From: Pseudomonadota bacterium
GTDB taxonomy: Bacteria; Desulfobacterota; Desulfobulbia; Desulfobulbales; Desulfocapsaceae
DNA: 64,000 nt
Assembly (NCBI GenBank): GCA_018820855.1
Contig: JAHJNL010000042.1
Location: 1-64,000, forward strand
Direction: 5' to 3'
Of this stretch, positions 8,972 through 49,140 are shown piece by piece. Under the pieces are notes generated by a model, which saw only the letters and a list, made by a program, of their open reading frames with translations, made no database searches and was not told the origin of the DNA. A program made the translations under genes and the position numbers. How positions within the stretch are numbered: position 1 is the stretch's first letter; each line of letters opens with the position of its first letter.

Positions 8972-10495
8972 GTGAAAATATCAAGAAATCTACTTATCAC
9001 ATTCGCAGCTTTTTTAGTTTCAGGACACTTTCTTTTATTTTCCGACGCTGCTGCCTCAGCTTTCAACTCCTTTGATAACTCCACATTTTCTAATTCAACA
9101 TGTGATATTTTGAAAATTGAGCAACCTCGCGGTATTTTTGCCTCACCTTCTGGCAACAGCAGTGCAACAGGAAGTTATAACGATCCCATAGACCTGCAAA
9201 CAGCCCTTTCCGTTTCCTCACCTGTTGAAGCAGGGGAAACACTCTGGCTGCTTGAAGGTACCTACAAAGGCAGCTTTGTCAGTGAGTTACGAGGAACAGA
9301 ATCAGCACACATAACAATCAAGCCCTACCCTGGAATACGTGCAATACTTGACTCCGAAATGTCACAGGGCGATTCCACCCTTACCATCAACGGTGAGTGG
9401 ACTGACTTTTTCGGACTGGAGATCCTGAGCTCTGATTCCAAGCGGGTTTCGGTTGAGTCAAGTTCAAGTCCCAGCGATATTACCCTGCTTGCAGGTGTCA
9501 CTGTTTTTGCTCCCCACACAAGAGTGATCAACTTTATTATCCATGATACTGCTGGCGGATTTTCTTTTTGGACTCCTGCACGCGACTCGGAACTTTATGG
9601 CAATATCATATATAACAACGGCTGGACTGCCCCTGATCGCGGTCATGGCCACGCGATCTACACCCAAAATGATCAAGGCTATAAAAAATTAGACAACAAT
9701 ATCATCTTCTTTGGCTTCGGCACTGGTATTCATGCCTATGGTGAAAGTGGTAAACTCAATAATTTCAGTATTGAAAAGAATGTCTGGTATATGACAGGTG
9801 CATCTGACCCCCGCGCATCACAACTCAAAGACAACTGTTTGGTTGGAGGCGCACAACCTGTGCAAAATCTCCTGTTAAAAAGCAATCTCGGTTATTCTCC
9901 CGGAAGAGGCACACGAATAGGCTATTACCCAAACGTTGCCAATGTCGATGCAACATTTATCGATAATTATCTGGTTGAATCGCTCTGGCTTTGGTCCGAC
10001 TGGCAAACGTTAAGCTTTGTCGATAACCATATCTATGGAACCCTGGATGATCAGCAAGGATATATTACTGCGAGCATACAGGAGGAAAATGACTTTCAAA
10101 ACAGCATGCCCACAAGCGGCAAGAAAGTCTTTATCCATGAAAACACATATGACCAAAGACGGGCACGCCTGGTAATATACAATTACGACGAGTCTGATCG
10201 TGTAGCAGTTGATGTAAGCTCTATCTTACAACAGGGTGAATCCTACCGTGTTCATTCTGTTTTTGATCTCTTTGGTAAGCCCATTCTCACTGGGGTATAC
10301 GGAGGAAGATCCCTTACCATACCTATGGGAACAGTCCCTCCCCCTCAACCCAATGGCTTGGTTGATGGTATCAGTGAGGATGACAATCCGAAGAAAAAAT
10401 TTGGTGTCTTCATCATCACCCATGCAGCTTGTGCCGATACCATTCCCGTTAATGGAATGAGTCCGGTTGCGGCCTGGATGTTGTTGCTTAAATAA
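8972..10495 (+). CDS. Secreted right-handed beta-helix (pectate-lyase-like) protein
   Basis: 507 residues. The N-terminal signal peptide (KISRNLLITFAAFLVSGHFLLF) has cleavage likely after the DAAASA region. A parallel beta-helix body follows, with repeated short strands such as LYGNIIYNNGWT, LDNNIIFFGFGTGIHAYG, FSIEKNVWYMTG and FIDNYLVES, and a proline-rich linker near residue 455. The PSGNSSATGSYNDPIDLQTAL entry motif and GxHxIYTQN segment are typical of extracellular polysaccharide-binding or -cleaving helices. No firm catalytic residues can be assigned. The GTG at 8972 is used as start because CTGGAG precedes it and the signal peptide begins there. The C-terminus ends with a short hydrophobic stretch (PVAAWMLLLK) that may be a sorting tail. 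Confidence 0.75.
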   Translation: MKISRNLLITFAAFLVSGHFLLFSDAAASAFNSFDNSTFSNSTCDILKIEQPRGIFASPSGNSSATGSYNDPIDLQTALSVSSPVEAGETLWLLEGTYKGSFVSELRGTESAHITIKPYPGIRAILDSEMSQGDSTLTINGEWTDFFGLEILSSDSKRVSVESSSSPSDITLLAGVTVFAPHTRVINFIIHDTAGGFSFWTPARDSELYGNIIYNNGWTAPDRGHGHAIYTQNDQGYKKLDNNIIFFGFGTGIHAYGESGKLNNFSIEKNVWYMTGASDPRASQLKDNCLVGGAQPVQNLLLKSNLGYSPGRGTRIGYYPNVANVDATFIDNYLVESLWLWSDWQTLSFVDNHIYGTLDDQQGYITASIQEENDFQNSMPTSGKKVFIHENTYDQRRARLVIYNYDESDRVAVDVSSILQQGESYRVHSVFDLFGKPILTGVYGGRSLTIPMGTVPPPQPNGLVDGISEDDNPKKKFGVFIITHAACADTIPVNGMSPVAAWMLLLK

Positions 10496-45141: not shown

Positions 45142-46482
45142 ATGCAGAAGACTACAAACAGCCAGCCCCCCCTTGCAGAACGGATGCGCCCGCAATCCCT
45201 CCAGGAATTTATTGGCCAGGAAAAACTCCTGGGTAAAGGAAAACTCCTGGAAAGTATGCTGGGGTCCGGCATACTGCCTTCTCTCATCCTCTGGGGTCCG
45301 CCTGGAACTGGAAAAACAACACTTGCCAGGATTCTGGCACGATCCACTGCTGCTGATTTTGTCTATTTCTCTGCCGTCCTTTCCGGAGTGAAAGAGGTAA
45401 GAAAAATTGTTGAGCAGGCGGAAAAACTCAGGGACACTGAGAACAGAGGGACCATCTTTTTTATTGATGAGATTCACCGATTCAACAAAAGTCAACAGGA
45501 TGCATTTCTTCCGCATGTGGAGAATGGTCTGTTCACCTTGATAGGTGCCACTACTGAGAATCCTTCTTTCCAGGTGATTGCCCCTCTTCTCTCAAGATGC
45601 CGAGTTCTCGTTCTGAGCCCACTTTCCACTGAGAACCTTAAAACTATCTTACAGAAAGCACTCTTTGATCGTAATCATGGTCTCGGTGGCCATGAACTGA
45701 CCTTTGCTGAAAACAGCATCGAACTCCTTGTCGCATTGGCTGACGGTGATGCCAGGAAGGGGCTTAACACTCTCGAAATCGCAGCGACAATTGCACTTCA
45801 TCGCTTAAAGGTTAAGGGTGAACACGAAAGAATTATTACTCTTGAGGATATCAAAGAAGCCAGTCAGCAGACTGTTCTTCGTTATGATAAAGGCGGAGAG
45901 GAACATTACAATCTGATTTCCGCTCTACACAAAAGCCTTCGAGATTCTGATCCAGACGGCAGCCTATACTGGTTCTACCGCATGCTTGAATCCGGAGAGG
46001 ACCCTCTCTATATCTGCCGAAGACTGATTCGCTTTGCCTCTGAAGATATCGGCCTGGCTGATCCTCAAGCACTGATTCATACGATATCCTGTAGAGATGC
46101 CTATCATAGCCTGGGGCTCCCGGAAGGTGGTTTGGCCATTGCCCAGGCAGTGGTCTATCTGGCCACGGCCCCCAAAAGCAATAGCCTTTATCAAAGCGAA
46201 AAAGTTGTAAAAAAGACCATTGACCGCAGCGGTTCACTCCCTGTCCCTCTTCATCTGCGCAATGCCCCCACCGCCCTGATGAAAAAGCTCGACTACGGTA
46301 AGGGCTACCAGTATGCCCATAATGCCGAACAGACCCTGGTGAGCCAGGAGCACCTCCCTCAAGAACTCAAGGGAGAGCGTTTTTATTCCCCCACGACTCG
46401 TGGGTATGAAGCCCTAATCAAAGACCGCCTTGAAAAATGGCGAGTCATCCTTCAACAGAGAAAGAACAATGCAGAGATTTAA
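45142..46482 (+). CDS. rarA: Replication-associated recombination protein A (MgsA/RarA AAA+ ATPase)
   Basis: 446 residues of the clamp-loader-related AAA+ family that acts at stalled replication forks. Marks: RMRPQSLQEFIGQEKLLG, Walker A WGPPGTGKTTLAR (about 52-64), Walker B FIDEIHRFNKSQQDAFLP (about 108-125), sensor TLIGATTENPSF and the C-terminal GEDPLYICRRLIRFASEDIGLADPQAL tetramerisation region. Its last 14 bases overlap the start of the selenoprotein cytochrome gene. Confidence 0.95.
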   Translation: MQKTTNSQPPLAERMRPQSLQEFIGQEKLLGKGKLLESMLGSGILPSLILWGPPGTGKTTLARILARSTAADFVYFSAVLSGVKEVRKIVEQAEKLRDTENRGTIFFIDEIHRFNKSQQDAFLPHVENGLFTLIGATTENPSFQVIAPLLSRCRVLVLSPLSTENLKTILQKALFDRNHGLGGHELTFAENSIELLVALADGDARKGLNTLEIAATIALHRLKVKGEHERIITLEDIKEASQQTVLRYDKGGEEHYNLISALHKSLRDSDPDGSLYWFYRMLESGEDPLYICRRLIRFASEDIGLADPQALIHTISCRDAYHSLGLPEGGLAIAQAVVYLATAPKSNSLYQSEKVVKKTIDRSGSLPVPLHLRNAPTALMKKLDYGKGYQYAHNAEQTLVSQEHLPQELKGERFYSPTTRGYEALIKDRLEKWRVILQQRKNNAEI

Positions 46483-48094
46483 TATATTCTCCAAGCCTAA
46501 GCGCCGGTTTTGCTGGCTGTCACTTTTTTTACTCCTGGGCCTGAGCAGCAGCCTTTATGGCGCCGTCCCTGCGCCTGCACTTCTTTTCTTTTCTGACAAC
46601 CTCCAGGGCGAAACAGAACCGTGTGGTTGAAAATCCAAACAATTGGGCGGTCTGTCCAAAAAAATATTTCAGATTCAAACAATCAGTGATCAGAGTAAAC
46701 AGGAAAGACTTCTGCTTGATTCCGGCAACCTTCTTTTTAAACGTCAAAGTGTAGCCGCTGGTCCGAACCAGGAACGGCTCACAGCAGCAGCCATCATGCA
46801 GATTTACCAAAAAATTGGTTATGATGCAGTGGGGATAGGTCCCTTGGATATGGCCGCTGGTATGGATTTCCTCCAGACCGGCGTAGCTGAAGACTTTCCC
46901 TGGATCTCAGCCAACATTTCAGACGACCGTGACAAACCACTCTTTCGTCAATGGATCAGCAAAGAGATTCAGGGTGTTCAGGTGGTAATCACTTCTCTTT
47001 CCGCCCCGCCGACAACGTTACCCCCATCCATAAAAGTTGCTCCCTGGGAATCAATTCTACCGGAACTCCTGCCACGAATGACGAAGGACAGAAATAATCC
47101 ATTCATCATTCTTCTTTCCACTCTCAGCACAGAAGAAAACCGTCTCATTGCAGAACAGTATCCCGCGATTAACCTCCTGTTGGGTGCAGGTCAACATCTG
47201 AGAAACGCATCTCCACAACTCATCAACAACACCCTTGTTACCCAAACGGACAAACAGGGGCAATATCAAGGACTCCTGGAAATAAGTTTCGGTAAACAAA
47301 GAACCTGGGGACAAAACAGGGAAAAACAACTCGCTGACCTGCAAAACAGGCTGGGATCACTGAACTGGCAACTTCAGCGGCTGGAAAAAAAATCAGCCGG
47401 GAATACGTCCAAAGAAAAATACTCCGGCACCATCGCACGATTGCACAAAGATCGAGATACAATCAATGCCCAGATCGCCTCGTTACAAGATACTATTACA
47501 AAAGAACAATCTCCTGACATGTTCACCGATCAGTATCAATACCGTTTCATTGGCCTGGAAAGCAATATGCCCGATGATAGCTCCACCGACAACATTCTCA
47601 AGGACCTTAATCGACAGATTAGACAGTTACACAAAAAACCATCCAAAGCCAAAAAGACAACAGATACCATGACGCTTTTTTCCCCATGGCGTGATCTTGT
47701 CGGCTTCCGGGTCTGCGAAAGCTGTCATGTTCTCCAGACAGAGTTCTGGCAAACTACCCAGCACGCAAGGGCATATACTACCCTGGCGGTAAAAGAGAAA
47801 AACCTGGATCTCGAATGCCTTCCCTGTCATGTGACAACAGATCTATTCACCACCAGTCTTCAAAACCTGCCTAAAGAGCATCTCCTTACTTTACCCAGGG
47901 AGTTGCAATCGGTCGGCTGTGAAAGTTGCCATGGGTCAGGAAAAACCCACAGCGTCGACCCTGAACGATTTAAAATGGTACGCCTGCCCGGGAAGAACAT
48001 CTGCCTTAATTGTCACACGCCTGAACACGATGACAATTTTGACTACGAAACAAAACTTGTTCCGATCTCCTGTCCTGCAGAACTAAACAAATAA
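46469..48094 (+). CDS. Candidate selenoprotein: phosphoesterase-like N-domain with tetrahaem cytochrome c domain (in-frame TGA at 46628-46630)
   Basis: Read through the TGA, this is a 541-residue exported protein. After a signal peptide (about 12-31) comes LLFFSDNLQGETEPCG, then the TGA as residue 54, then KSKQLGGLSKK and LLLDSGNLLF. In related 5'-nucleotidase/metallophosphatase-like and multihaem proteins this motif reads EPCGC...QLGGL, so TGA stands at the second Cys of a CGC pair. A hairpin with the SelB-binding GGTCT loop starts 12 bases after the TGA, with the loop 18 bases after it, as in E. coli fdhF. A central coiled coil (about 290-350) precedes a C-terminal cytochrome c554-like domain with four CxxCH motifs at 416, 450, 484 and 512. 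Both halves are in the same frame and both are well conserved, which argues against a decayed gene. A periplasmic redox role is likely; the exact reaction is unknown. Confidence 0.82.
46643..46659 (+). promoter_or_regulatory. Bacterial SECIS-like hairpin
   Basis: TTGGGC-GGTCT-GTCCAA forms a 6-bp stem (one G-U pair) with an apical GGTCT loop. The loop begins exactly 18 bases after the TGA at 46628-46630, the same distance and loop sequence as in the E. coli formate dehydrogenase H SECIS. Confidence 0.78.
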
Positions 48095-48210: not shown

Positions 48211-49140
48211 TTAGCAGCCAAAAGCTTTCTGCAAATTAGGAACGGTCTGTTTTTTACGACTCATCATGCCATCAATCCACATGGAGACACCCTCGAGTTT
48301 TCCGCCAAAAGCTTTCTCGATCAGAGCTACATCATCAGAAATAACAACGAGGTCGGTACCTTCTTTGACAACATCGGTAAGCATGAGAAGAACAGAATGA
48401 CGTCCGTCAGCTTTCACTTCCTTCATGGCACCAAGCAGATCGTCACGAATGGCAGCTACCTGATCAAGGGTAGCAAGCTCGAGCTGGCCAACACCTACTT
48501 TATGTCCCTTCATATCAAAATCTTTGTAGTCGCGGAAAAGCAGATCTTTTGCAGGAACTCCAGCAACTGCTGATTTGGCCTTCAGCATATCCATGAACAG
48601 GCTGTCGGTATCATCAACACCGGCGATGGTCTTGAGCTCAGCAACAGCAGCCTTATCATCGTCAGTACAGGTGGGGGATTTAAAGTTTACGGTATCGGAA
48701 AGAATTGCACAAAGCATTCCACCAGCTACATCTTTAGGAATAGCAACACCAGCATCCTTGTACATCTTGTTCAGTACGGTTCCGGTACAGCCAACAGGCT
48801 CGGCACGGAAGAAGATAGGCTGATTGGTGGTAATATCACCAATTTTGTGATGATCAACGATTGAGACCACTTCAGCCTCAGTAATACCTGCAGGGGCCTG
48901 GCCAATATCGCTGAAATCAACAAGAGCGACAGTTTTTCCTGCCACATCATTCATTTCCTCTGGGGCAGTCAGACCAAAACGCTCAAGAACCACGGTAGAC
49001 TCGGGGTTGAGCTTATCAAGAGAAGTCTGCATACAAGCTTTGGCATCCCGGCCCTGGGCATTCAGAAGAGTTGCCAGCCCAATGGCTGCGGTTACTGAAT
49101 CGGTATCAGGGTTAGAATGACCTGTAACGTAAATTGTCAT
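48211..49140 (-). CDS. ppaC: Manganese-dependent inorganic pyrophosphatase (family II)
   Basis: 309-residue DHH-family enzyme hydrolysing pyrophosphate in the cytosol. Active-site marks are complete: VTGHSNPDTDS (His and Asp ligands, 6-16), VDFSD (75-79), the DHH motif in VDHHKIGD (about 97), AILSDTVNFKSPTCT (about 150) and the C-terminal SRKKQTVPNL loop. Regulatory CBS domains are absent. In sulfate reducers this enzyme pulls the ATP sulfurylase reaction forward, which fits the proposed lifestyle. Confidence 0.95.
   Translation of the reverse strand: MTIYVTGHSNPDTDSVTAAIGLATLLNAQGRDAKACMQTSLDKLNPESTVVLERFGLTAPEEMNDVAGKTVALVDFSDIGQAPAGITEAEVVSIVDHHKIGDITTNQPIFFRAEPVGCTGTVLNKMYKDAGVAIPKDVAGGMLCAILSDTVNFKSPTCTDDDKAAVAELKTIAGVDDTDSLFMDMLKAKSAVAGVPAKDLLFRDYKDFDMKGHKVGVGQLELATLDQVAAIRDDLLGAMKEVKADGRHSVLLMLTDVVKEGTDLVVISDDVALIEKAFGGKLEGVSMWIDGMMSRKKQTVPNLQKAFGC

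Follow-up and report, generated by a model that had tools for sequence, protein, structure and literature searches.

The question raised by this locus is whether a TGA codon inside a long reading frame ends a gene or specifies selenocysteine (Sec), and what kind of protein the frame then encodes. The locus lies in a stretch of 64,000 nucleotides that was analysed as a whole and is referred to here as the window. On its plus strand, a 541-residue frame (46469-48094) is interrupted by a single in-frame TGA at residue 54 (46628-46630), and the surrounding peptide reads ETEPCG-TGA-KSKQLGGL. A list of open reading frames made with translation table 11 (at least 80 residues) contains the part after the TGA alone, starting from a TTG at 46643. 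An earlier note on this DNA had joined the two parts into one gene and proposed a new, exported selenoprotein with a phosphoesterase-like fold and four haem motifs. Its reasoning, made from the letters only, was sound; the outcome is a member of a family already catalogued. The features of the locus are collected in Table 1.

Table 1. Features of the selenoprotein locus and its neighbours (positions in the window)
Feature	Position	Strand	Remarks
RarA/MgsA-like AAA ATPase gene (presumed), upstream neighbour	45142-46482	+	
UshA-like (seleno)protein gene, NF041198 family	46469-48094	+	541 residues when one TGA is read through
Probable signal peptide (hydrophobic segment near the N terminus, residues ~15-31)	46511-46561	+	Suggested by sequence and by model helix 10-26
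Cys52-Gly53-Sec54 (TGT GGT TGA), CxU motif	46622-46630	+	Sequence; 65-sequence comparison
SECIS hairpin, 6-bp stem, loop GGTCT	46643-46659	+	Loop starts 18 bases past the TGA
5'-nucleotidase/SoxB (metallophosphatase) fold domain, residues ~35-390	46571-47638	+	Fold comparison; approximate boundaries
Two long helices, residues 284-346, apparent helical hairpin inside the fold domain	47318-47506	+	Model helices 284-310 and 315-346
Haem motif 1, CESCH, residues 416-420	47714-47728	+	
Haem motif 2, CLPCH, residues 450-454	47816-47830	+	
Haem motif 3, CESCH, residues 484-488	47918-47932	+	
Haem motif 4, CLNCH, residues 512-516	48002-48016	+	
Manganese-dependent inorganic pyrophosphatase-like gene (presumed), downstream neighbour	48211-49140	-	

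Read through the TGA, the frame matches the NCBIfam profile NF041198, 'UshA-like (seleno)protein', with 493.1 bits against a curated cut-off of 275, and the match extends over positions 10-519 of 519. The short name of the profile, UshA_like_PCGU, agrees with the EPCG-TGA motif of the window protein; the PCGU/PCGC motif that we used as a criterion was taken from this name and from the CxU listing described below. Since the protein shares nearly the whole profile, the PCGU motif and the haem region, and no difference was found, it is a member, and we are confident that the gene encodes a selenoprotein of this known UshA-like family.

The selenoprotein, including its Cys-Gly-Sec motif, is already named and catalogued and is not a discovery, because NF041198 is curated and UshA-like CxU selenoproteins have been in print since 2008. 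In the relevant passages of the 2008 Global Ocean Sampling paper (PMC2398784), UshA-like proteins (COG0737, CxU, 76 selenoproteins) are discussed among previously characterised families and are placed apart from those with known Cys-based redox motifs. They have the same fold family and CxU motif as the window protein; those passages mention no haem domain, and the group is presumably that of NF041198, to judge by name and motif. A UshA-like CxU entry also appears in a 2022 review (PMC9312934), which cites the 2008 paper as its source, and an entry of a 2026 review (PMC13188914) gives NF041198 with CxU, alongside a family 2, NF049981, with CxxU. None of the relevant passages in the three papers takes up the lost metal ligands or the haem fusion. 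The main text of PMC12013277 contains no word beginning 'UshA'. Given the profile match and these three papers, the proposals of a new selenoprotein and of a new redox motif were both abandoned.

Two other families were compared. The UshA-like domain of NF049981 is related, but the window protein reaches only 36 bits against a cut-off of 140, and it has CxU where the family 2 entry has CxxU. ExtKL, listed as NF040886 in the same 2026 review (PMC13188914), is likewise a multihaem c-type cytochrome among selenoproteins; it is a different family, absent from the NCBIfam matches of the window protein, and was rejected as its identity because the profile match was to NF041198 instead. The genome encodes a second UshA-like gene (L094; G000:C73:109826-110551) that has no TGA and a weak, below-cut-off likeness to NF049981.

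Relatives provide stronger evidence on the TGA than folding energy does. After removal of five duplicate loci, we compared 65 distinct sequences including that of the window. Of these, 53 have TGA at the position and 12 encode Cys there (TGC in 11, TGT in one), a ratio biased by the choice of loci, namely the best-scoring matches, selected relatives and all 12 stop-free matches among those listed for the order. Position 54 is thus always TGA or Cys, and Cys52, Gly53 and the Gln and both Gly residues of QLGGL are invariant. This bears out the earlier view that the TGA stands where a CGC motif would have its second Cys, and homologues with neither Cys nor TGA, which would have counted against it, are absent from the set. 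One further locus (L067), missed by the motif search as it has LGSL for LGGL and lying outside the 65, carries TGA at the same place. Alignments used 37 of the 65 sequences (A1) and 35 of the 53 with TGA (A2).

The alternative is that the TGA is a true stop, leaving either a broken gene or two proteins, from 46469-46630 and 46643-48094, and an open reading frame caller using table 11 does divide the frame there. Against this, 53 of 65 sequences share one TGA at this codon and the other 12 have Cys there. The pattern across the order also speaks against it: matches above the NF041198 cut-off occur in 190 of 257 genomes and, among the 150 matches listed, 137 contain exactly one TGA, 12 contain no stop and one (G169) contains TGA and TAG. 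Moreover, the downstream part on its own would begin MGGLSKK, without a hydrophobic leader. The additional TAG in G169 would favour a true stop; the earlier note had held that other stops in the same gene of close relatives would weigh against Sec, and such stops do occur but are rare, at one in the 150 listed for the order (G169, a genome of the same taxonomic family). In this relative (L070; G169:C40) the TAG follows the Sec-site TGA and lies just ahead of the haem region, and more haem-region fragments are found about 2.4 kb further on. An even sample of the phylum gave matches above the cut-off in 69 of 395 genomes; among those listed, further stops were seen in G065 (two TGA), G275 and G507 (TGA and TAG) and G420 (two TGA and TAG). 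In 14 control genomes there was no match over the NF041198 cut-off, and a plasmid search with the selenoprotein sequence returned no match.

Downstream of the TGA, the letters TTGGGC / GGTCT / GTCCAA form a hairpin of six base pairs. The distance from the TGA to the GGTCT loop, 18 bases, is the same in fdhF of E. coli MG1655, so the likeness to fdhF that the earlier note drew is exact in loop spacing. Folding energy gives a divided picture: folded by itself, the hairpin outperforms most shuffles (z = -2.52, equalled by 4 of 200), whereas within a 46-base context it is not unusually stable (z = -0.50, equalled by 59 of 200). Support for the hairpin is therefore drawn from conservation, not from energy. 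In a crude scan of the window for TGA followed by a GGNCT-loop hairpin with at least five pairs, two places were found on the plus strand and none on the minus strand; the other match, at 9394, has just two open codons after it. The same scan of 20 mononucleotide shuffles yielded no match with at least 100 open codons downstream.

Conservation of the hairpin differs between the two forms of the gene. In the 53 TGA genes the hairpin codons are fixed as GGC and CTG (53 of 53 each) and as TCC or CCC (53 of 53), although elsewhere in these genes GGC accounts for 39% of Gly codons and CTG for 33% of Leu codons. The Cys genes are looser, with GGC in 7 of 12, CTG in 7 of 12 and TCC in 5 of 12. Likewise, all six stem pairs form in 38 TGA genes and five of six in the remaining 15, against two to six pairs in the Cys genes, a difference that speaks against a true stop. 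The loop of the 53 TGA genes is always GG-any-CT (GGTCT in 44, GGGCT in six, GGACT in three). Part of this conservation arises because the QLGGL peptide is itself conserved. Across the 35 aligned TGA sequences, 95.2% of stem cells are paired, compared with 92.8% when shuffled and 25 to 58% when the stem is slid along the alignment; the outermost pair is UA in 14, CG in 11 and unpaired in 10, and variation on both sides (11 of 35) is limited to this pair. Two Cys genes (L072 and L075) still form all six stem pairs, which would fit a recent change from Sec to Cys.

The genome (4.82 Mb, completeness 100) also encodes the machinery for Sec, which the earlier note had asked to be looked for. The bit scores exceed the cut-offs for selA (609.5 against 267.9), selB (367.7 against 242.25), selC (73.4 against 47) and selD (366.6 against 125); a lack of selB or selC, which would have spoken against Sec, is thus not the case. 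The selC gene is sited elsewhere in the genome, outside the window, where ARAGORN found no tRNA and Rfam at gathering thresholds gave no match. The selD gene (L050; G000:C91:9507-10448) contains one in-frame TGA itself, and Sec-containing SelD proteins are known. Taken together, the four sel genes, the TGA/Cys column and hairpin codons that are fixed in TGA genes but looser in Cys genes make it very likely that the TGA at residue 54 is read as Sec, so the earlier description of a probable selenoprotein stands. The presence of all four sel genes also speaks against a true stop, which we consider very improbable. An open frame through the TGA would equally suit a genome in which this codon had come to specify some amino acid other than Sec; with Sec machinery and a SECIS hairpin both present, we regard reassignment as even more improbable than a stop.

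The TGA and Cys forms differ in their surroundings. The upstream neighbour, which we take to be a RarA/MgsA-like AAA ATPase gene, overlaps the start of the selenoprotein gene with its last 14 bases, and on the strength of this overlap the two may be co-transcribed. Among 53 distinct TGA loci, 45 have a rarA-like gene directly upstream and 35 have in their flank a counterpart of the downstream gene, presumably for a manganese-dependent inorganic pyrophosphatase-like protein; for the Cys loci both figures are 0 of 12. These tallies are lower bounds, as many flanks span only 1.5 kb, and they count repeated loci once, include L067 and leave out the window. The complete lack of the rarA-like gene from the Cys flanks indicates that the Cys copies are located elsewhere. 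At five of the 12 Cys-form loci (L025, L028, L074, L077 and L080) the gene is adjoined by one for a conserved membrane protein in which several CxxCH motifs look haem-like; this neighbour was not found at any TGA locus searched. The neighbour genes offer no clear functional clue.

The protein consists of an N-terminal UshA-like domain and a C-terminal haem region. The hydrophobic stretch near the N terminus is probably a signal peptide, and the selenoprotein would accordingly be exported. Foldseek and sequence profiles concur on a UshA/5'-nucleotidase/SoxB fold for the N-terminal domain, and the structure model (mean pLDDT 83) superposes on UshA (2ush_B; Z = 30.4, 278 residues aligned, r.m.s.d. 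= 2.5) and on SoxB (2wdc; Z = 29.7, 279 residues aligned, r.m.s.d. = 3.7), in agreement with the phosphoesterase-like fold first proposed. The limits of the domain were taken from structural-comparison rows that end at residue 390. Within it, the modelled pair of long helices may be an insert. Residues 55-59, directly after Sec, have pLDDT below 50, so the model does not fix the position of Sec relative to the cleft.

The C-terminal region matches the Pfam family Cytochrome_C554 (PF13435) with 45 bits against a cut-off of 20.8. The likeness to cytochrome c554 (1bvb) is confined to this haem region, and the window protein differs in having the domain fused to the UshA-like domain. All four CxxCH motifs read by the earlier note are present, and four are found in 64 of the 65 sequences, the window's included; the exception is L070, with none ahead of its TAG. 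These motifs suggest that four c-type haems are attached to the protein.

The active site of the fold domain is less well preserved than its fold. For mapping, we took the metal and catalytic ligands of UshA to be D41, H43, D84, N116, H117, H217, H252 and Q254. The window protein has Asn, Gln, Pro, Leu and Thr at D41, H43, N116, H117 and H217. Across the 65 sequences, Asn is never kept at N116 nor His at H217, His is kept at H117 in eight and at H43 in nine, and Asp is kept at D41 in 41. The alignment of D84, H252 and Q254 is uncertain: D84 maps to Ser94 with MAFFT or to Asn87 with hhalign (a column with Asp in 3 of 65), and the window protein has His at H252. Most mapped residues thus appear to be replaced, and the two-metal site and NHE motif of UshA-type metallophosphoesterases are not found in the window protein. 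Loss of every ligand throughout the family is not proved, because Asp at D41 and His at H43 persist in some members, the window protein has His at H252 and the placement of D84 depends on the aligner. With the mapped residues mostly replaced, the window protein is unlikely to be a classical two-metal phosphoesterase. It shares its fold with E. coli UshA and Thermus SoxB (Z of about 30) but not most of their active-site residues, and to our knowledge neither UshA nor SoxB has a haem domain or CGU.

What might such a protein do? Tentatively, and with somewhat less than even confidence, we propose a periplasmic redox enzyme whose substrate reacts at Cys-Gly-Sec and whose tetrahaem domain conducts electrons. 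Having given up its usual two-metal site, the metallophosphatase fold would serve as a binding cleft; Cys52-Gly53-Sec54, placed beside this cleft and near the haems, would be the redox-active centre; and the cytochrome c554-like domain would move electrons to or from it. The substrate might be a compound of sulfur or selenium, or some other molecule that can be oxidised or reduced. The motif, the fold, the haem motifs and their conservation are observed features on which this proposal builds. Alternatively, Sec may be inserted into a protein that is still a metal-dependent phosphoesterase, with Cys-Gly-Sec as a metal ligand or structural element. The UshA- and SoxB-like fold and the Asp at the D41 equivalent in most of the 65 sequences would suit such an enzyme, but the near-complete loss of the residues at N116, H117 and H217, and the Asn and Gln that the window protein has at D41 and H43, argue against it, and we consider it unlikely.

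Metal ligands that have been replaced, together with a constant fusion to a tetrahaem domain, make the redox proposal a concrete and testable hypothesis. The family may, if the proposal is right, represent a class of periplasmic Cys-Gly-Sec redox selenoenzymes with a tetrahaem domain, derived from a phosphatase fold by loss of the metals; in the sulfur-metabolising bacteria that have them, their substrates could be compounds of sulfur or selenium.
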